NCBI GenBank assembly: GCA_016193365.1
Contig: JACPSI010000001.1
Location: 1-34,855, forward strand
Reading direction: 5' to 3'
Length of the DNA stretch: 34,855 nt
Source: Ignavibacteriales bacterium
GTDB taxonomy: Bacteria > Bacteroidota > Ignavibacteria > UBA10030
Below, in pieces: positions 3,384-13,105 of this stretch. The position numbers and the translations under genes are program-made. Under the pieces are notes generated by a model, which made no database searches, was not told the origin of the DNA, and saw only the letters and a program-made list of their open reading frames with translations. Each line of letters begins with the position of its first letter. Position 1 is the stretch's first letter.

Positions 3384-3878
3384 TCACTCCGCTTTTCGTG
3401 CCGCCAGCTGACGATCCAGCATGATCAAGCCCGCGGGAGCGTCGCCCACCTGCTTCAACAAGTGAATAACCTCGTTGGCGCTCTTTTCTTCCTCAACCTG
3501 CTCTTCAATAAACCACTGCAACATTACCTGAGCCGGGTAGTCTTTTTCCTTGATGGCCAGCTCATACAGGCCATGAATGAGCGAAGTGACCTTCTGCTCA
3601 TGCTCCAACACTTTCTTCATAACATCAAGAGGGCTCCTGTAGTCCATCTTTGGCTTGGCGATGGCTTCAAGCTCCACTTTTCCTCCCCGCTCGATGATGT
3701 GCTTGTAGAGTTTTAATGCGTGGCCGTATTCTTCCTGGCTCTGGATCATCATCCAATTCGCAAAGCCCGGGAGATTTGTGCTCTGAAAGTACGCAGACAT
3801 GGAGAGATACTGGTATGAGGAAAAAAATTCATGCGTAACTTGCTCGTTGATTGCATCCAGTACTTTTTTTGAAATCAT
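3384..3878 (-). CDS. ftnA: Bacterial non-haem ferritin
   Basis: Cytoplasmic iron store that oxidises Fe(II) and holds the mineral in a 24-subunit shell. The 164 residues match the family's usual length. The ferroxidase residues sit at the same numbers as in E. coli FtnA: E17, E50, H53, E94, E126, Q127 and E130. There is no bacterioferritin-type haem signature. A clear ribosome site (AAGGAG) lies 8 bases before the ATG at 3878. The gene follows dctM on the same strand after 46 bases with no visible terminator, so read-through from the TRAP operon is possible. Separate iron-dependent control is equally plausible; I could not identify a Fur-like box. Family assignment is firm; shared transcription is inference. 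Confidence 0.95.
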   Translation of the reverse strand: MISKKVLDAINEQVTHEFFSSYQYLSMSAYFQSTNLPGFANWMMIQSQEEYGHALKLYKHIIERGGKVELEAIAKPKMDYRSPLDVMKKVLEHEQKVTSLIHGLYELAIKEKDYPAQVMLQWFIEEQVEEEKSANEVIHLLKQVGDAPAGLIMLDRQLAARKAE

Positions 3879-3924: not shown

Positions 3925-5199
3925 TCAATTCGCAGCATTTACGATGAACAAGCTCAGTTCCGGGACGTACGTTATCACCATCAACGCGATGAGCTCCAGC
4001 ACGATGAAGATGAGCACCGACCGCGTAATGTGCAGAATGGGTTTATGAAACCGCAAGCCGGAAAGGAAAAGGTTTAATCCCACGGGAGGCGTGAGATAAC
4101 CGATTTCGAGGTTTGTCAGGAATATGATGCCCAGATGAATCGGGTCGACCTCAAACTGCATCGCCACGGGGAGAATGAGAGGGACGACAACGAGGATCGC
4201 CGAAAAAATATCCATCATCATCCCGACGATAATCAGAAAACCGTTGAGGATAAGAAGGAACGTCACCTGGCTTGTGACATTTGCCTTCACGACTTCAAAA
4301 AGTTTCTGCGGGACTTCCGCGTCGATCAAATAGTTCGTCAACCCCAGTGCCGTTCCCACAATGGCAAGGATCGCCCCGACGAGCAGCATGCTTTCTTTCA
4401 TGACCCGCGGCACATCGGTAAACAGCTTAAGGTCTTTATAAATGAAGACCTCCACCACAAGGACGTAAAACGCGGTGACCGCAGCGGCTTCCGTTGCGGT
4501 GAACACGCCTCCATAGATCCCTCCGATGATGATGAGCGGCAGCGGAATCTCCCACGCCGCTCCCTTTACAGCAGAGATGATATTCTGATAGCCAAAGGAA
4601 ACCCGCGGGACCTTTGCCGACACACTTACGCCGACGCTATACACGGATAAAAATGCAATCAGAAGAATTCCAGGGAAAAGGCCGGCCAGAAAAAGCTTGT
4701 CAATTTCAGCTTTTGAGATGACGCCGTACAGAATGATGGGCAGGCTCGGCGGAAACAGCAGCCCTATACTCCCCGATGCCGTCACCAGTCCAAGAGAGAA
4801 CTGTTCGGGGTATTTCTCTTTCAACAAAACAGGATAGAGAAGGCCTCCCAGGGCTACGATCGTAACTCCTGAAGCTCCCGTAAAAGCCGTAAAAAATGCA
4901 CAGGCAACAAGAACGACAATCGCGAGGCCACCGGGCATCCACCCAAAAATCGCCTGGGCCACGTGCACGAGACGTTTCGGCGAGTTGCTCTCCGCCAGAA
5001 CATATCCGGCAAACGTGAACAACGGTATCGCAATCAAAACCGGGTTTTCGGCAATGGAATACAGGTTGATGATGACGGCAGAGCTGTCGATATCCGCCGA
5101 GGCAAAAGCGTACAACGCAAACGCGCCGATGACGGCAAACAGCGGTGCACCAAGCAAGGCCAGAAGACTAATAAGTGCGACAACGAACCATACATTCAC
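3925..5199 (-). CDS. dctM: TRAP transporter large permease subunit
   Basis: Large membrane subunit of a TRAP (tripartite ATP-independent periplasmic) secondary importer, which moves the solute using a sodium or proton gradient. The 424-residue product has about 12 hydrophobic segments and the family's glycine/proline-rich loops, for example in the stretch reading GASGVTIVALGGLLYPVLL and in the LTPPVGLNLF motif near the end. I place the start at the GTG at 5199 rather than the longer open frame to 5307. The GTG has an AAGGAG site about 7 bases upstream, overlaps the dctQ stop by 3 bases, and gives the family's normal N-terminus. Upstream of it the reading frame overlaps dctQ and does not look like protein. 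Fourth and last transporter gene of the operon. Substrate unknown. Confidence 0.93.
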   Translation of the reverse strand: MNVWFVVALISLLALLGAPLFAVIGAFALYAFASADIDSSAVIINLYSIAENPVLIAIPLFTFAGYVLAESNSPKRLVHVAQAIFGWMPGGLAIVVLVACAFFTAFTGASGVTIVALGGLLYPVLLKEKYPEQFSLGLVTASGSIGLLFPPSLPIILYGVISKAEIDKLFLAGLFPGILLIAFLSVYSVGVSVSAKVPRVSFGYQNIISAVKGAAWEIPLPLIIIGGIYGGVFTATEAAAVTAFYVLVVEVFIYKDLKLFTDVPRVMKESMLLVGAILAIVGTALGLTNYLIDAEVPQKLFEVVKANVTSQVTFLLILNGFLIIVGMMMDIFSAILVVVPLILPVAMQFEVDPIHLGIIFLTNLEIGYLTPPVGLNLFLSGLRFHKPILHITRSVLIFIVLELIALMVITYVPELSLFIVNAAN

Positions 5200-5693
5200 G
5201 AAGCGCTCTCCTTCTCCATAAAGGAACGCACATTGAGGAGAGCCCGCACCAGGAAATGAATCATGAGCAACGCAAAACCGGACGGAATGATGATTTCCGA
5301 GTACCATGCAGGAATGTCATGATAGAGCGTGGCGTTTACCGAAAGCTCGTTCTGCACAAAAACAACCGACGCGCGGAAAAGAAAGTAGCAAGTCACCACA
5401 GCAAAAAGATGCGTGAACACACCAACGAGCAGGCGAGCTTTCGGCCTGATGAATCTGGTGAAAGCGTCAATAGAGATGTGACGGTCGTTGCTTGTGGCGA
5501 GCGCTGCACCAAGAAACCCGATCCACAGGACGAGATGTCTCAGAAGGATATCGACCCAGATGATGGTGCTGTTGAAACCATTCCGCAGCACAACCTGGAG
5601 AAATGCCATGAGAATCATGGCTGAAAGAAAGAGGACGAGGAGAACCCCTTCGGCTTTATTGAGGAAGGCGTCAAACTTTCGCAGAAAACTCAT
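5196..5693 (-). CDS. dctQ: TRAP transporter small permease subunit
   Basis: Small membrane subunit that pairs with DctM in TRAP importers. The 165 residues contain four membrane helices (about 15-37, 50-68, 88-110 and 128-150). The loop after helix 2 has the typical DctQ region with a conserved tryptophan and the sequence RHISID. Its ATG at 5693 overlaps the dctP stop in an ATGA arrangement, and its TGA overlaps the dctM GTG, so the three genes are translationally coupled. Length and layout match separate (not fused) DctQ proteins. Confidence 0.92.
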   Translation of the reverse strand: MSFLRKFDAFLNKAEGVLLVLFLSAMILMAFLQVVLRNGFNSTIIWVDILLRHLVLWIGFLGAALATSNDRHISIDAFTRFIRPKARLLVGVFTHLFAVVTCYFLFRASVVFVQNELSVNATLYHDIPAWYSEIIIPSGFALLMIHFLVRALLNVRSFMEKESAS

Positions 5694-6709
5694 TGAGCGG
5701 CTTTGTTGTTCTTCCGGAATTCTGCAAGAGCACTTTCCACATTGTTCAATAACTCTTCAGAATAGAGTTTACCAACAAGCATTCTTCGCGCTTTTCTGCC
5801 GGTTTCAAGGTAATGGGCGAGGTCTTTGGGGTCGACTGTCAGGAACTTCATCCCGGATTTCCTGAGAGTCTCCAGGGATTTTTGATTGTCCTCCCGGCTG
5901 AGCTTGGTCAGTTTGCTCATATACAGCCGTCCATTTCTCAGGAGGATTTCCTGCAGGTCTTTTGGTAAGCCGTCAAAGTATTTTTTTGAAATAAGCACGG
6001 CTCCAGCGGCGTTCGTCAGCGGCACGTCGATGACATATTTCGCCTGTGTATGCCATTGCAGGCTGATGGCAGCAAGCGGCGACGTGTAGAACGCATCAAT
6101 GAGTCCCGTCTGGAGCGAAGTCCGAACATTGTCGAGCGACAGGGCAATTGGGTTAATCCCCAGCATTTTGAAAGCAATCTCAGGCATGGCATCTCCTTCC
6201 CATGTCCAGATTCTTATCGACTTCAGGTCGTCCGGCTTTCGGATTTCCGTTTTGGTAAACACATAAACAAAGCCAACGTCCGTCATGCCCAAAAGGACGT
6301 ACCCGCCATCCTCAAACGCCTTTTCAAACTCTTTGCCAAATCGTTCCAGAAGATAATCTGTCTCCCGTGCGTTTTGTACGAGAAACGGCGCCTCCAAAAC
6401 ACGAACAGAGGGAGCTACTTCACCCATGCCAACCCCCGTCACTCCCACTGAATGGATTTGCCCGATTTTCACCTTTCTCAGGTACTGCTGCTCTGTTCCC
6501 TGTGAACCTCCAAAGTAAATCTTAAACCCCATGCGCCCGCCGCTTTCTTTTCGCACGGCAGCATCATATTCACGCATCACATTAATCCACGCCGTTCCTT
6601 CGGGCGCCACGGTGGCAAATTTGACCGTAAACTCCTGTGACCATGCCAAGGTACAAGCGCTCGACATCAGCCACAGTATAGTTCTCAAGAATTTCAATTT
6701 CTTTTCCAT
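5690..6709 (-). CDS. dctP: TRAP transporter periplasmic substrate-binding protein (TatP/DctP type)
   Basis: Periplasmic receptor that delivers substrate to the DctQM permease. 339 residues: a signal peptide (about 1-24, ending LAWSQ) and a DctP fold. R166 in the motif SIRIW occupies the position of the family arginine that normally binds a carboxylate ligand, and the segment ALSLDNVRTSLQTGLIDAF is the conserved hinge region. The flanking residues (RIWTWEG) differ from the usual C4-dicarboxylate binders, and the upstream neighbour encodes a TatT lipoprotein. It therefore fits the receptor of a TPR-associated TRAP system better than a malate/succinate importer. Starts 3 bases after tatT. The ligand cannot be named from sequence. 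Confidence 0.92.
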   Translation of the reverse strand: MEKKLKFLRTILWLMSSACTLAWSQEFTVKFATVAPEGTAWINVMREYDAAVRKESGGRMGFKIYFGGSQGTEQQYLRKVKIGQIHSVGVTGVGMGEVAPSVRVLEAPFLVQNARETDYLLERFGKEFEKAFEDGGYVLLGMTDVGFVYVFTKTEIRKPDDLKSIRIWTWEGDAMPEIAFKMLGINPIALSLDNVRTSLQTGLIDAFYTSPLAAISLQWHTQAKYVIDVPLTNAAGAVLISKKYFDGLPKDLQEILLRNGRLYMSKLTKLSREDNQKSLETLRKSGMKFLTVDPKDLAHYLETGRKARRMLVGKLYSEELLNNVESALAEFRKNNKAAQ

Positions 6710-6712
6710 TCG

Positions 6713-7585
6713 TCAAAAATATTCATTTGTGTTTGCCAACAGCCGTTGAGCCTTTTGTTTTGCCACCGCATTCGGAAACGTGGCAGCCGGGAGGATATCC
6801 GAAGGCGCTTCTATCACTTTTTTCAGGAGAGATTCATACAATTCCTGATCCTGCACTTGAACTGCGTATGTTTTTGCATAGAACACCTGGGTCATCAAAA
6901 ACTTCCCTTTGTTGACAGCAAGACAGCGTTCGAAATAATCCCTGGCTTTTTCCGGCTTACCACCCAACGCCGGAGGCAGGCTGCCTTCTATGCTCCCGAA
7001 AAACAGCAAGGCGCCTCCATGATAGTACGTCGAGTCGTTTGTCCTGACGAAACCCATGAGTGCTTCCACCTTCGGGAGATCGATCAGAGCATCGGGGTCA
7101 GTGCGCGTAATATTGACATAACTTCCCCATGCAAATGCAGCCCAGAACGCCGCCGGCACATCCTCCCGAGATAAAGAACCCACAGATTTTGAAAAAGTTT
7201 CAAAGTCCCCATTCATGCCAGAACGGAATCCGTCCTTTTGGCCCAGAATCCTCAACGCAAAATCACGCGCACGAAGATACAACGACCTGGCCCTTTCGAG
7301 GCTGTCGTCCTCGACGAACGCGAGCGAGTAGGCGTTGTAGCCTTGAGCCGCAAAGAGCAAGAGCTTTTCATTCTCCGGGTCGCCTTTTATGAGCGCCTCG
7401 ATGAGTTTCAGATTTGCCCCCAGCGCCTCCCGTGCGAGCTCGGTGTCGGATTCTTCATTGAAAGCCTCAAAACCATAGTCCATAATGCCGGCCATGGTCC
7501 GAATGGCAATCGTTTGAAAACAGCCGGAGAAAAGAATTGCGACAAACAGCAGCGTCGTTTTTGTGGGGAACGTCGAGGTCGTCAT
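6713..7585 (-). CDS. tatT: TatT-like TPR lipoprotein of a TRAP transporter
   Basis: Likely periplasmic T component of a TPR-associated TRAP transporter, the family of Treponema pallidum Tp0956, where TatT forms a trimer that docks with the substrate-binding protein. From the ATG at 7585 the product has 290 residues. A lipobox (LFSGC, Cys22) predicts a lipid-anchored mature protein, followed by helical TPR-like repeats. Features shared with the family are an early AxxxMAG-like helix, an AFAWGSYVNITRTDP segment near the middle, and a final helical segment with FLMTQVFYAKTYAVQVQD. A longer open frame reaches 7717, but that extension would bury the lipobox and runs through the promoter. There is no Shine-Dalgarno site; the promoter places the transcript start next to the ATG. 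First gene of tatT-dctPQM. Confidence 0.85.
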   Translation of the reverse strand: MTTSTFPTKTTLLFVAILFSGCFQTIAIRTMAGIMDYGFEAFNEESDTELAREALGANLKLIEALIKGDPENEKLLLFAAQGYNAYSLAFVEDDSLERARSLYLRARDFALRILGQKDGFRSGMNGDFETFSKSVGSLSREDVPAAFWAAFAWGSYVNITRTDPDALIDLPKVEALMGFVRTNDSTYYHGGALLFFGSIEGSLPPALGGKPEKARDYFERCLAVNKGKFLMTQVFYAKTYAVQVQDQELYESLLKKVIEAPSDILPAATFPNAVAKQKAQRLLANTNEYF

Positions 7586-7734: not shown

Positions 7735-8424
7735 ATGAGAATTCTGTTGGTAGAAGATGAGTTGAAGGTCGCGCGGTTCATTCGGCAAGGCCTCGAGGCG
7801 GAGGGTTATGAAGTCGACGTTGCTGCTGACGGACAAACGGGCGAACACAAAGCGACCGGCGAACAGTTTGACCTTGTCATCCTCGATGTTCTCCTTCCGA
7901 AGAAAAACGGCTTCGACATCCTCAACTCGTTGCGCCATGACGGCATCAAAGTTCCGGTGTTGATGCTCACTGCGCGCAGTGGGACCGAAGATATCATCAA
8001 AGGGCTCGACACCGGCGCCGATGATTATCTGACAAAGCCGTTCGCTTTTGACGAACTTCTTGCACGTGTACGTTCGCTCCTCCGACGCGGATCGGAAGCG
8101 AAAAGAGTTTTAAAGGCCGCCGACCTCGAACTCGATACCTTATCCCGGAAGGCAATACGCAAAGGAAGGCACATCGAGTTAACCACGCGGGAGTACACGT
8201 TACTGGAATTCTTGATGCGCAAACTGGGGCGGCTTGTCACGCGTGACCAGCTCGCCAAGGAAGTGTGGGGACTCAATTTTGACCCCGGAACGAACATTGT
8301 CGATGTCTACATCAACCACCTGCGAAAAAAAATCGACCAGGGCGCTGAAACAAAACTTATCCACACAGAGCGGGGAAAAGGCTATTTCATCTCGGACAAG
8401 AACAGTGCTGCGGCAAAACGATGA
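7735..8424 (+). CDS. OmpR/PhoB-family response regulator
   Basis: Cytoplasmic DNA-binding regulator activated by phosphorylation from the next gene's kinase. 229 residues from the ATG at 7735. The receiver domain (1-120) has acidic residues E8/D9, phospho-acceptor D51 (LDVLLP), T79 and K101 (TKPF). The winged-helix output domain (about 128-222) ends with the typical VDVYINHLRKKID and RGKGYFI motifs. The frame extends upstream to a GTG at 7705, but that start would include part of the repeat and non-conserved residues; MRILLVEDE is the normal start. The stop overlaps the kinase start in an ATGA arrangement. Sequence resembles the CusR/CopR branch, but no metal role can be shown. Confidence 0.94.
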   Translation: MRILLVEDELKVARFIRQGLEAEGYEVDVAADGQTGEHKATGEQFDLVILDVLLPKKNGFDILNSLRHDGIKVPVLMLTARSGTEDIIKGLDTGADDYLTKPFAFDELLARVRSLLRRGSEAKRVLKAADLELDTLSRKAIRKGRHIELTTREYTLLEFLMRKLGRLVTRDQLAKEVWGLNFDPGTNIVDVYINHLRKKIDQGAETKLIHTERGKGYFISDKNSAAAKR

Positions 8425-9920
8425 CTTTTTTTCATTCCATTCGAACCAGACTGACCCTCTGGTATACCGCGTGGCTTGGCGCCACGCTGCTCGCCTTCGG
8501 AGCCATATCGTATTTCGTCACCCGACAGGTTCTAATTGAAAACCTCGACCGCTCGCTCCATAGTGAGGTGAAATGGGTCAACGAATTCATTGAGCCGAAA
8601 GCGAAAAAAGTCCGTCTTAAACGCGCAGCCGTCCGTGAACTGCAGGAACTGAAAAAATCCGCCTCGACGTCAACTCCGACGGAAGCGGAATTGAAAGCGA
8701 CGGAAGAGGAGTTGAAAGCGGCTGAAGAGCGTGCCGAGGTTGACGAGATGTGGAACCACACCCTGCTCACGCCGCGGCGTCATTTCATTCAGATCCTGGA
8801 CAGAAATAACGACCTGCTGTACAAGTCGCCGAACCTCGCCAAATCGCAAATCACATTTGACGATATCCCGTACGGGAATGTCCATGTCGAGACCGTTCAA
8901 ATCCCCGAGCTCCAGTTTTTGCGCCTGGCGGTCATGCAGAACGATTACGTCAAGATTTTCGTGGCATTTCCTCTGGAGCCTGTTACCGAAGTGCTGGACA
9001 GTCTCTTCGCCAACTTTGCGATTATCGCTCCCATTGCCCTGCTGCTGTCAATTATCGGAGGGTGGTTTCTGGCGCATAAATCCTTGAAACCGGTTGACGC
9101 CCTTACCCGGGCAGCGCGGGAGATCACAGCGCAGAATCTCAGCCGGCGTTTACCCGCTTATAACGTCGACGACGAAATCGGCAGGCTCACCGCCCAGTTC
9201 AACGACATGATTGGCCGCCTCCAAGCTTCGTTTTCTCAGGTTCGGCAGTTTTCAGCAGATGCCTCGCACGAGCTCCGCACTCCCCTGACGATCATGCGCG
9301 GTGAAATTGAGGTTGCACTCCGAGGTCAAAAGCTGAATGAGCAAACAAGGACGCTCCTCGAGAGTATCCACGATGAGCTCGTGCGTCTTTCCAACATCGT
9401 GGAAAGCCTCATGTCCCTTGTGAAATCGGATTCAGGAACGCCAGTGTTCAATTTCCAGGAAATCTCGCTGACGCAAATTATTGAACAGATTGTAACGGAT
9501 GCCCGGTTGCTTGCCGAACGCAAAAGCATTTCTGTGACCGTCGGGCCGCTTGACCAGATTAGCGTCAACGGCGATGCCACGAGATTGCGTCAGCTGTTTC
9601 TAAACCTGGTCGACAATGCCGTCAAATACACGCCGCAGAATGGCAGCATCGGTTTTTCCGTTCATCGGAACAACGGAAACGCCGTCATCCGTGTCCAGGA
9701 CACCGGCATGGGGATACGCCGCAAAGACCTCGGCAAGATCTTCGACCGATTTTATCGCGGAGATCATACACGGGACGGCGAACATTCCGGGAGCGGGCTT
9801 GGACTGTCCATTGCCAAATGGATTGTCGAGTCGCATCACGGCACAATCGAAGTGACGAGTCGGGAAAGAAAAGGGAGTACGTTCACGGTCACGCTCCCGC
9901 TTGCGACGAATAACCACTGA
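8421..9920 (+). CDS. Sensor histidine kinase, HAMP/HisKA/HATPase
   Basis: Inner-membrane sensor that phosphorylates the regulator encoded just upstream. 499 residues: first membrane helix about 12-33, periplasmic sensor 35-195, second helix about 197-217, HAMP 218-270, HisKA with H283 in ASHELRTP, and an ATPase domain with N399 (N box), DTGMG at 427-431 and GSGLGL at 457-462. All kinase motifs are intact. The sensor contains a highly charged helical stretch (about 58-108, rich in Lys, Glu and Ala) likely to form a coiled coil. It includes a doubled heptad encoded by the tandem repeat at 8689-8730. Architecture matches CusS-like heavy-metal sensors, but the sensor lacks obvious His/Cys metal clusters, so the signal is unknown. 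Confidence 0.94.
   Translation: MTFFHSIRTRLTLWYTAWLGATLLAFGAISYFVTRQVLIENLDRSLHSEVKWVNEFIEPKAKKVRLKRAAVRELQELKKSASTSTPTEAELKATEEELKAAEERAEVDEMWNHTLLTPRRHFIQILDRNNDLLYKSPNLAKSQITFDDIPYGNVHVETVQIPELQFLRLAVMQNDYVKIFVAFPLEPVTEVLDSLFANFAIIAPIALLLSIIGGWFLAHKSLKPVDALTRAAREITAQNLSRRLPAYNVDDEIGRLTAQFNDMIGRLQASFSQVRQFSADASHELRTPLTIMRGEIEVALRGQKLNEQTRTLLESIHDELVRLSNIVESLMSLVKSDSGTPVFNFQEISLTQIIEQIVTDARLLAERKSISVTVGPLDQISVNGDATRLRQLFLNLVDNAVKYTPQNGSIGFSVHRNNGNAVIRVQDTGMGIRRKDLGKIFDRFYRGDHTRDGEHSGSGLGLSIAKWIVESHHGTIEVTSRERKGSTFTVTLPLATNNH
8689..8730 (+). repeat. 21-bp tandem duplication inside the kinase sensor domain
   Basis: Two adjacent 21-base units (8689-8709 and 8710-8730) match at 18 of 21 positions. 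They encode the heptads ELKATEE and ELKAAEE, so the duplication keeps frame and lengthens a coiled coil by one heptad. Confidence 0.8.
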
Positions 9921-9987: not shown

Positions 9988-10009
9988 AGACAGAGATTCG
10001 AATCCATTG

Positions 10010-10765
10010 ATGGCCTCATCCCGCCGCGCATCAAGACGCAAAACGTACTTTTTTTCCGACGCTCACCTGGGCCTGGGTTCGAGAGAAGAGGAACGCGAGA
10101 AAGAACAAAGGGTCGTCGATTTTCTCTCATTGGTACTACAAGACGCAGAGCAGCTGTTCATCGTCGGCGATTTGTTTGATTTCTGGTTTGAATACAAGTC
10201 CGTCGTCCCAAAAGGGTATTTTCGTCTTTTCTCGAAGATCGCTGAACTTCGCGATGCTGGCGTAAGGGTTTCGTTCCTCGCCGGCAATCACGATTTTTGG
10301 CTGAAGGGATATTTTCGAGACGAACTCGGCATGCAGGTTTTTCTTGAACCGATAGAGCGGGTTATCCGCGGGAAACGCTTCCTTATCCATCATGGCGATG
10401 GCCTGCTCAAAAACGATACGGGCTACAAAATTCTGAAAAGCATTCTCCGCAACAGAGTGAACATGTTTTTGTTTTCGCTGGTGCATCCCGACATCGCGGG
10501 AGCGATCGCACGCTGGTCCTCCCGAAAGAGCCGGCAGCATACGAGCAAGCGTCCTCTCGAGGAGGGAGACATGATCCACCACGCAGGGCAAAAAATTGGC
10601 GAGGGATTCGACTATGTCGTTATGGGGCACAACCACCTGCCTCAGTTTCGCAAGATTGGCAACGGAGTGTATGTGAACCTTGGGGATTGGATTTCTGAAA
10701 ACACCTACGCTGTATTTGACGGCAAGAAACTGGAATTAAAAAAATGGAGCCCGCGTCCACGATAG
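10010..10765 (+). CDS. lpxH: UDP-2,3-diacylglucosamine diphosphatase-like metallophosphoesterase
   Basis: Likely the lipid A pathway enzyme that splits UDP-2,3-diacylglucosamine into lipid X and UMP at the inner membrane face. 251 residues from the ATG at 10010; a TTG directly before it is a less likely start. The five metallophosphoesterase blocks are in order: D17/H19 (SDAHLG), D54 (GDLFDFW), GNHD at 92-95, H128/D130 (HHGDG) and GHNH at 206-209. The amphipathic segment between blocks 4 and 5 (about 140-185) corresponds to the helical cap that binds acyl chains in LpxH. GNHD replaces the GNRD of E. coli LpxH. It follows the two-component genes and precedes a penicillin-binding protein. A related phosphoesterase with another substrate cannot be excluded. 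Confidence 0.8.
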   Translation: MASSRRASRRKTYFFSDAHLGLGSREEEREKEQRVVDFLSLVLQDAEQLFIVGDLFDFWFEYKSVVPKGYFRLFSKIAELRDAGVRVSFLAGNHDFWLKGYFRDELGMQVFLEPIERVIRGKRFLIHHGDGLLKNDTGYKILKSILRNRVNMFLFSLVHPDIAGAIARWSSRKSRQHTSKRPLEEGDMIHHAGQKIGEGFDYVVMGHNHLPQFRKIGNGVYVNLGDWISENTYAVFDGKKLELKKWSPRPR

Positions 10766-10810
10766 GAATCGGGAACGGTTCAAGGCTCACAAGGTGTTGA
10801 TAAAAGGACT

Positions 10811-13105
10811 ATGGCAAAAGAGAATTACAGCTCCGAAAAGATGAATCGTTATTTTAACGACCCGCTGTACCGTCAAAGCCTCCTGCAACAAGGGCGCGGA
10901 TTTTTCAAAGACCGTCGTAACGTTGTCATCATTCTCACCGTTGCTCTTGCCATTCTCGGCATCGCGTTCACCTTCCACGTTGTCTCCGGGATGCCGTCAC
11001 TCGAGAAACTCGAAAATCCCCAGCCAGAGCTTGCGACGAAGATCATAGCGGAGGATGGGGAAATACTTGACCAGCTTTTTTACAAGAATCGAACCCGCGT
11101 TTCGCTCAATCAGCTCCCCCGGGGCCTCGTCGAGGCTCTCATTGCAACAGAGGACAAACAGTACTACAACCACTGGGGAATACACCTCGAACGCGTGTTG
11201 AAGGCTGCGGTGAAAAACATTCTCTCCTTTAGCCTTCGGGAGGGCGCCAGCACGATTACGCAGCAACTTTCACGCAATTTGTATCTGAAGCCGGACCGTC
11301 ATGTCTTTGACAAGATAACTCGAAAATTTCGAGAACTCCTTTCGTCAATTCAAATCGAACGCAACTTCACGAAGGACGAGATCCTCGAATTGTATCTGAA
11401 CGTGAGTTACTTTGGCCGCCAGGCATATGGGATCGAAGCCGCGGCACAAACATACTTCGGCAAACCTGCTTCGAAACTTGAACCGGCAGAATACACGCTT
11501 CTCATCGGAATACTGAAAGGTCCGTCTTACTACGACCCTCTCAACCACTTGGACCGTGCGATGAACCGCAGGGACATTGTCATCGGCCAGATGGTGAAAG
11601 ACGGCCTCGTGACGGCCGAATCAGCCGAGCTCATTCGAGCGGAAGTTCCGGTTATTAAAGAGCCGGAAGCGGAATACCGGACGGGGATCGCGCCGCACTT
11701 CGTTGAAATGATCAGGAGGGAACTTGTCCGGAAGCAGCAACAATACGGGTTCGACGCTCTCCGTGACGGACTTCGCGTCTACACAACGATCGACAGCCGG
11801 ATGCAAAAACACGCTATACAGGCAATCGAGGATCACCTCAACTATTTTCAGACTGCTTTCGATTCGGCATGGAACTGGAAGAGATATCCTGAAATCTTGA
11901 AAGACAACATCGACAAAACCATCAAGGAATCCGAACAATACAAGAAGCTGAAAACACACGAAAGCCGCGATAGCCTGTTGCAGGTGATGCGCGCCGATTC
12001 TGCCCTCATCGACACCGTGAAGCAACTTGCAAAAACAATAGAAGTCGGCTTTGTTGCCATCAACCCTCACAACGGCCATGTTCTTGCAATGGTGGGCGGT
12101 AAGAACTTCCGGTCGTTCAAGTACGGGTTGAATCACGTCACGCAGATTCGCCGACAGCCGGGGTCGGCATTCAAACCTTTTGTTTACACCGTTGCGCTCG
12201 ACAATGGCTATCCCGCATGCTACGAGCTGTTGAACCAGCCGGTAACGATTCCCATGCCCGACGGCACTCGCTGGACTCCCTCGAATTACGATTTGTCCAT
12301 TGGCGGGAAATACACGCTTCGGGAAGCGCTCAAAAAATCGATCAATCTTGTGACTGTCCGGGCAATCCTCGAAATCGCTCCTGCAAAGCAGGTTGCCCAG
12401 TATGCGAAGCGCATGGGCATCAGGTCACGAATCCCGGCATACGAATCCATCGCCCTGGGTTCAGTTGAAGTTTCGCCATTGGAACTGACCTCATCGTACT
12501 GTGTATTTCCAAACGAGGGTGTTCATGTCGAGCCAATCTCCATCCTGCGCATTGAAGACAAAGACGGAAATGTCATTGAAGAAAACCGTCCGGAAAAAAG
12601 AGAAGTGCTGAGCAAGGAAACGGCTTACCTCATGACAAACCTTATGGAAGGAGCCGTCAACGAAGGCACGGGGACAGCAATACGAAGATATTTTTATTTG
12701 CCTGCTGCGGGAAAAACAGGCACAACCAATGACTATGGCGACGCGTGGTTTGTAGGCTTCACGCCCCAGGTTGTTGCCGGCGTCTGGGTCGGTTTCGACG
12801 ATGGACGAATCAAATTCGGCACATCAGACGGTCAGGGCGGCAGAGCGGCAGCGCCCATCATCGGCAAATTCTTCCAGCAAACATATGAGAACCCGGATTT
12901 AGACCTGCCAGTCGAATATTTTAACAGGCCTGACGGAATCGTCCAGGATACGATTTGCGTCGACACGAAGAAAAAAGCGCGTGAGTGGTGCCCGCAAAAA
13001 ATGACCGAGCTGTTTAACGCCAAGTATCCTATCGGGCTGTGCGACAAACACACAAGCGCATTGTGGAACGAAGGAAGGGAAACGCCGAGCAAAATCAACT
13101 GGTGA
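10811..13105 (+). CDS. mrcA: Class A penicillin-binding protein (transglycosylase/transpeptidase)
   Basis: Polymerises and cross-links peptidoglycan in the periplasm. 764 residues: short cytoplasmic tail, membrane helix about 37-58, GT51 glycosyltransferase (about 75-250) with catalytic E114 in ATEDKQYYNHWGI and the REGASTITQQL motif, a linker, then a transpeptidase (about 410-690). Transpeptidase motifs are S452-x-x-K455 (GSAFKPF), S510-I-N512 and K635-T-G (GKTGTTNDYGDAWF). All active-site residues are present. A helical, lysine/glutamate-rich insert (about 335-405) separates the two domains. The start at 10811 has an AAAGGA site 5 to 6 bases upstream. Overall layout is PBP1A-like. It ends 119 bases before the convergent T9SS gene. 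Confidence 0.95.
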   Translation: MAKENYSSEKMNRYFNDPLYRQSLLQQGRGFFKDRRNVVIILTVALAILGIAFTFHVVSGMPSLEKLENPQPELATKIIAEDGEILDQLFYKNRTRVSLNQLPRGLVEALIATEDKQYYNHWGIHLERVLKAAVKNILSFSLREGASTITQQLSRNLYLKPDRHVFDKITRKFRELLSSIQIERNFTKDEILELYLNVSYFGRQAYGIEAAAQTYFGKPASKLEPAEYTLLIGILKGPSYYDPLNHLDRAMNRRDIVIGQMVKDGLVTAESAELIRAEVPVIKEPEAEYRTGIAPHFVEMIRRELVRKQQQYGFDALRDGLRVYTTIDSRMQKHAIQAIEDHLNYFQTAFDSAWNWKRYPEILKDNIDKTIKESEQYKKLKTHESRDSLLQVMRADSALIDTVKQLAKTIEVGFVAINPHNGHVLAMVGGKNFRSFKYGLNHVTQIRRQPGSAFKPFVYTVALDNGYPACYELLNQPVTIPMPDGTRWTPSNYDLSIGGKYTLREALKKSINLVTVRAILEIAPAKQVAQYAKRMGIRSRIPAYESIALGSVEVSPLELTSSYCVFPNEGVHVEPISILRIEDKDGNVIEENRPEKREVLSKETAYLMTNLMEGAVNEGTGTAIRRYFYLPAAGKTGTTNDYGDAWFVGFTPQVVAGVWVGFDDGRIKFGTSDGQGGRAAAPIIGKFFQQTYENPDLDLPVEYFNRPDGIVQDTICVDTKKKAREWCPQKMTELFNAKYPIGLCDKHTSALWNEGRETPSKINW

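Follow-up and report, generated by a model that had tools for sequence, protein, structure and literature searches.

In tripartite ATP-independent periplasmic (TRAP) transporters of the DctP family, a receptor arginine (Arg147 in SiaP) binds the ligand carboxylate and imposes selectivity for carboxylates; in the available text of PMC4646407, it is kept in 5943 of 6142 DctP-family sequences (96.8%), and its commonest replacement is Phe. The same text suggests that a small group of arginine-less receptors binds hydrophobic ligands, and it describes both Tp0957 of Treponema pallidum, with Ala at the arginine position and a hydrophobic pocket, and Csal_0678, an arginine-less DctP that binds ethanolamine. 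Tp0957 is the receptor of a tetratricopeptide repeat (TPR) protein-associated TRAP transporter (TPAT) whose additional T-component is TatT (Tp0956). This rare kind of uptake system was originally reported from T. pallidum. According to the available part of PMC5812351, both the pore of TatT and the cleft of the receptor are hydrophobic, a linear hydrophobic molecule lies in the pore, both proteins are described as lipoproteins, and TPATs also occur outside spirochaetes. As far as the available parts of PMC4646407 and PMC5812351 go, the ligand of TPAT systems is left open. Here we describe a TPAT-type operon, tatT-dctP-dctQ-dctM, of an Ignavibacteriales bacterium (assembly GCA_016193365.1, contig JACPSI010000001.1, positions 1 to 34,855; this whole 34,855-nucleotide stretch is the window). 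In our alignments, its receptor belongs to a clade in which the arginine position is occupied by tryptophan.

The operon and its receptor

The operon spans 7585-3925 on the minus strand, with its genes packed head to tail: tatT and dctP are separated by 3 bases, and dctP/dctQ and dctQ/dctM overlap by 4 bases each, the GTG start codon of dctM overlapping the dctQ stop. Operon status was judged by this gene spacing. The features (Pfam scores in bits) are as follows.

6713..7585, minus strand: tatT, predicted T-component lipoprotein of 290 residues; Pfam TAtT, 251 (cut-off 26.5), profile positions 1-263 of 263
7520..7522, minus strand: codon of Cys22, the putative TatT lipobox cysteine; G21 and C22 are conserved in at least 90% of 37 TatTs
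5690..6709, minus strand: dctP, substrate receptor of 339 residues with a predicted signal peptide; Pfam DctP, 134.8, and NCBIfam TRAP_S1
6206..6208, minus strand: codon of Trp168, which takes the place of the carboxylate-binding arginine of TRAP receptors (SiaP Arg147)
5196..5693, minus strand: dctQ, small membrane subunit of 165 residues; Pfam DctQ, 88
3925..5199, minus strand: dctM, large membrane subunit of 424 residues; Pfam DctM, 262.2, and NCBIfam dctM, 355.3 (cut-off 268.45)
3384..3878, minus strand: ferritin gene, 164 residues, beginning 46 bases past dctM; Pfam Ferritin, 150; possible last gene of the transcript

Coordinates and Pfam matches agree with the original prediction of a tatT-dctPQM operon with one 3-base gap and two overlaps, and the ferritin gene (3878-3384) does lie within 46 bases, as it had stated. 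The window's genome (completeness 97.06%) gave no second match to TAtT, DctP, or DctM. A promoter scan was not informative (5 found, 3.3 expected by chance).

The tatT product is a bona fide TRAP T-component by profile search and predicted fold. Its AlphaFold2 model, built from 37 family members (mean predicted local distance difference test [pLDDT] score of 92.3), matched T. pallidum TatT (3u64, Z score 29.6; in the complex 4di3_A, Z 30.2 and 2.2 Å over 255 residues) as well as 8g52_A, the T-component of another TPAT (Z 29.6). Next came BstC, a sterol-binding protein (7t1s_B, Z 19.6 over 220 residues), and the remaining matches were other TPR proteins with Z below 18; a Foldseek search likewise supported the assignment. 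In a search of solved-structure sequences with the family profile (E values up to 1), only 8g52 (1e-25) and Tp0956 (1.5e-23) were recovered. By its conserved lipobox G21-C22, which reads ...FSGC in the window, TatT is predicted to be a lipoprotein. The Pfam score, the structural matches at Z of about 30, and the lipobox bear out the earlier description of a TatT-like, lipid-anchored TPR protein. With the window TatT or the second TatT of genome G004 (locus L076; see below) as query, no T-component match was obtained on plasmids.

Profile and predicted fold assign the receptor to the general DctP family (PF03480): it scores 281 bits against TRAP_S1, and its predicted model (pLDDT 94.0) reaches Z scores of 33.3-36.1 among the 50 structural matches listed. 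Among solved structures, those closest to it in sequence are ordinary DctP chains (4p47 at 1e-24). Because no lipobox is common to the relatives, whose N termini resemble ordinary signal peptides without a shared cysteine, the receptor is probably soluble; Cys19 of the window receptor is not shared by them.

The original prediction took R166 of the receptor for the family arginine. In nine displayed HMMER alignments, made with the receptor or the family profile against five distinct solved DctP chains, the residue opposite the arginine is W168, and R166 lies opposite a lysine; the DLKSIRIW stretch aligns without gaps to DLKGxKIR-type stretches. We then compared 43 clade receptors with 33 other DctPs of the phylum (controls) in a joint alignment. 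Position 168 is W in 43/43 clade receptors, whereas it is R in 33/33 controls. Likewise, position 148 is V (42/43) or I (1/43) in the clade and R in 33/33 controls, position 209 is T (30/43) or S (8/43) versus N (33/33), and position 208 is Y (43/43) versus E (33/33). At position 166, 41 of the clade receptors have K and 2 have R (the window and L060, from a same-family genome), and 33/33 controls have K. W170, G172, D173, and W219 each occur in 43/43 clade receptors; the unusual RIWTWEG neighbourhood noticed earlier is thus real and clade-wide. The receptor lacks the polar residues found at three positions in the ordinary receptors compared and has acquired a fixed aromatic set.

In these alignments, the receptor lacks an equivalent of Arg147, as does the T. 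pallidum-type TPAT receptor, and hence the residue by which a DctP would be classed as carboxylate type. On the predicted model, residues 167-170 form a strand, on which the side chains of W168 and W170 should face in one direction; given where the arginine lies in related receptors, both may line the pocket. A very long branch (support 100/99) sets the Trp receptors apart in a receptor tree of 78 rows, 76 of them different; the L076 receptor has a long row as well, and its placement is unsure.

The residue counts depend on the following choices. L077, whose tatT is cut by a contig end, was left out of the alignments; L137, a duplicate of L142, was removed before counting; and L076 stands outside both groups. 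The controls comprise 30 loci of the best-scoring DctP matches plus L103, L135, and L136, and, because they were chosen in this way, they lean to ordinary high-scoring receptors. Control rows L131 and L132 are identical, and L128, L135, and L136 come from genomes that also carry a Trp-type receptor. At the 30 best-scoring loci, where this was checked, no TatT lies beside the control DctP.

Of the original interpretation, TatT membership and the gene architecture therefore stand, while the statement on the arginine does not; its correction to W168 strengthens the idea of an unusual ligand. TatT matches were found in both profile and structure searches, and the receptor sequence does not fall squarely in the C4-dicarboxylate group, as the arginine is absent and the score stays under the NCBIfam dctP subfamily cut-off (87.5 versus 175.05).

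Distribution and genomic neighbourhood

TAtT is present in 38 of 41 genomes (the window's plus 40 others from its genus, family, and order), the misses being G038, G012, and G014. The absence in G038 is probably an artefact, because its dctP match starts 7 bases from where the contig ends; G012 and G014 have no DctP match either. Of 395 genomes drawn from the phylum, 23 gave a TAtT match, and in 19 it exceeded the cut-off; these 19 comprise 16 from the order of the window, its own genome among them, and 3 from a single other family within the class. The matches in G302, G172, G282, and G054 are under the cut-off and were not counted as TatT. DctP matches were found in 134 of 395 genomes of a like phylum draw.

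The full tatT-dctP-dctQ-dctM order exists in 34 of the 36 loci of the order (L040-L075) and in 5/5 further loci (L095-L099, three of that other family and two of the order); L031-L037, which partly repeat contigs of other genomes sampled, were excluded from the counts. One of the two exceptions, L063, ends with its contig within dctQ; the other, L072, is taken up below. In the literature searched, we found no paper on TPATs in Ignavibacteria and none on Trp at the arginine position of DctP receptors. The TPAT type itself is known.

The window ferritin is the only PF00210 match in its genome. Among the loci of the order, the ferritin is directly downstream in 10/21 same-family and 0/15 other-family loci. 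L059, of the same family, and L068, of another, have a ferritin of a different subfamily downstream of dctM in the same orientation (L059:10547-10987 and L068:4448-4864); these two (Pfam Ferritin, 80.3 and 70.3 bits) are 53% identical to each other and 25.95% and 22.7% identical, respectively, to the window ferritin. With L059 set aside, 10/21 same-family relatives have no ferritin-type gene downstream. The 15 other-family loci divide into 2 without dctM in the stretch, 1 (L068) with a ferritin-type gene, and 12 without. By a rough, post hoc estimate that treats loci as independent, about 0.011 chance adjacencies are expected among 34 loci. Ferritin genes at other sites occur in several genomes that lack the adjacency, G005, G008, and G013 among them. 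No terminator-like site is listed in the 46-base gap between dctM and the ferritin gene, and, from the gene layout, one transcript through the ferritin gene is plausible.

A putative two-component system is divergent from tatT:

7735..8424, plus strand: OmpR-type response regulator, candidate regulator of the operon; Pfam Response_reg and Trans_reg_C
8421..9920, plus strand: sensor histidine kinase, presumed partner, overlapping the regulator gene by 4 bases; Pfam HisKA and HATPase_c

A relative of the regulator is divergent from tatT within 2.1 kb in 21/36 loci of the order (14/21 same family, 7/15 other families), and the divergent system recurs in four families of the order. Regulator and kinase resemble cztR_silR_copR and cztS_silS_copS but stay under the respective cut-offs (261.8 versus 279.2 and 269 versus 292.55).

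Beyond this system, window positions 10007-13105 hold an LpxH-like phosphoesterase gene (under the curated cut-offs) and a gene for a transglycosylase/transpeptidase penicillin-binding protein, both of which recur near tatT in many same-family loci. On the other side, at positions 16-2863, an adenylate/guanylate cyclase-type gene precedes a gene whose 573-residue product carries tetratricopeptide repeats in the C-terminal half; in the congener locus L040, matches to both also lie next to the operon. Single-group neighbours were a peptidase/beta-propeller protein, an amino acid permease, an oxidoreductase, and a phosphoesterase. Among the tatT neighbours, no recurrent functional theme was found beyond the two-component system, envelope genes, and ferritins.

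Possible ligands

The loss of the arginine suggests a substrate other than the ordinary TRAP acids, and we think that the ligand may be something other than a simple carboxylate, at least partly hydrophobic or aromatic compatible. TatT, a predicted ring-like helical lipoprotein, would capture this ligand in the periplasm or at the outer membrane and may hand it over to DctP, the probably soluble receptor, for delivery to the ion-driven DctQ/DctM permease; the divergent two-component system may control the operon. Taken as a whole, this uptake scheme for a noncarboxylate, probably partly hydrophobic ligand is, in our judgement, somewhat favoured, with room for doubt. We put forward only tentatively, and regard as rather doubtful, the fuller proposal of a clade-defining Ignavibacteria TPAT that has lost its carboxylate filter (R148 to V, R168 to W, N209 to T/S), imports a hydrophobic nonacid as the only DctP-type TRAP transporter of its genome, and is possibly tied to iron storage. 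Toluene_X/FadL-family porins (E < 1e-60) in 28/41 genomes, including the window's, would make outer-membrane entry of hydrophobic compounds possible.

Several observations weigh against a noncarboxylate ligand handled as in T. pallidum. The porin evidence is weak because the TatT-less genomes G012 and G014 also have such porins. Tp0957 is only at rank 11 when solved chains are searched with the receptor family profile, and it is not among the 50 structural matches listed for DctP. The charged neighbours of W168 are conserved (D173 in 43/43; E171 in 40 and D in 3). L072 (G036:C19, 7154-9027) consists of tatT-dctP on a contig that continues beyond, with no dctQ or dctM match adjoining by tblastn at a limit of 1e-6, which very divergent genes could escape. 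Lastly, G004 has three DctP genes on different contigs: the main tatT operon with a Trp-type receptor (C24), an ordinary DctP on a contig with no TAtT match listed (C13), and a second, divergent tatT-dctPQM operon (C17; L076, 4593-8266; TAtT, 100 bits). The L076 receptor keeps Arg148, Arg168, and Asn209 and is closest to ordinary solved DctP chains (4p9k, 1.9e-45); therefore, a T-component does not require a noncarboxylate ligand, and, as read from these sequences, T-component and carboxylate-site loss are not strictly linked.

The conserved acidic neighbours and the aromatic set can be read in another way, with W168, W170, Y208, and W219 forming a cage for a small amine or zwitterion (ethanolamine, choline, or betaine type), helped by the acidic E171/D173, and TatT serving as a docking or buffering protein and not as a lipid carrier. 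The invariance of the four aromatic residues and D173 across the clade, together with ethanolamine binding by Csal_0678, speaks for this possibility; because the pore and cleft of the T. pallidum system are hydrophobic and its pore holds a linear hydrophobic molecule, we consider it unlikely. It is also conceivable that the operon encodes an ordinary organic-acid transporter in which another basic residue binds the carboxylate and TatT only raises capture efficiency: R78, R103, R272, and R308 are invariant in the 37-sequence receptor alignment, L076 combines a T-component with intact carboxylate-site residues, and the nearest solved chains are ordinary DctPs. Such a transporter would, however, have to accommodate the joint loss of three polar positions held by 33/33 controls in a family that so generally keeps its arginine, and we rate its chances as low.

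An iron or redox role, for example, uptake of a hydrophobic iron-linked compound coexpressed with ferritin under the two-component system, would fit the ferritin placement in the window and in 10 of the 21 same-family relatives, the lack of another PF00210 match in the window's genome, the different-subfamily ferritin in the same place in L059 and L068, the small number of adjacencies expected by chance, and the resemblance, though below cut-offs, of regulator and kinase to heavy-metal subfamilies. Against it, the adjacency may reflect shared descent, the chance estimate shares the limits given above, and so many same-family and other-family loci have no such gene downstream, some of their genomes carrying ferritin elsewhere, that we regard the idea as very improbable. 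Whichever ligand applies, the clade keeps T-component, receptor, and permease together across many genera with a fixed Trp for the arginine, which makes these good proteins for finding what T-components carry, and the Trp-type and arginine-keeping tatT operons of G004 form a built-in comparison.

Comparison with known systems

BstC of Methylococcus capsulatus (7T1S), a member of the T-component superfamily, shares the ring-like helical fold with the TatT model. In the available part of PMC10942540, BstC binds sterols, is studied with BstA and BstB and not with TRAP proteins, and is encoded with sterol synthesis genes. The setting here is different: matches to the cyclase domain PF13243 are partial and at most 34.2 bits (5/41 genomes, including the window's; 4 over the cut-off), and hopanoid or sterol synthesis was rejected as a ligand source because these matches are only partial and low scoring. 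The best match of the TatT profile among solved sequences, 8G52, is annotated as a "bacterial TPAT family transporter"; its identification with BstC was rejected, since the BstC sequence and the data statement in the available text of PMC10942540 give BstC as 7T1S.

With ordinary DctP-TRAP systems of the SiaPQM type, the operon shares the receptor fold and the DctQ/DctM permease, and in sequence its receptor is closer to ordinary DctPs than to Tp0957. It differs from them in the conserved carboxylate arginine, which the receptor here has lost, and in having a T-component, which, in the available part of PMC5812351, stands outside the classical TRAP system. The T. pallidum TPAT (Tp0956 and Tp0957) differs in its fused TatQM (available text of PMC5812351), in contrast to the separate dctQ and dctM here, and in its lipoprotein receptor, where ours is probably soluble. 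It is like the present system in the family and fold of its T-component, in the encoding of the components in one operon, and in a receptor without the carboxylate arginine, which is replaced by Ala in Tp0957 (available text of PMC4646407) and by Trp here.

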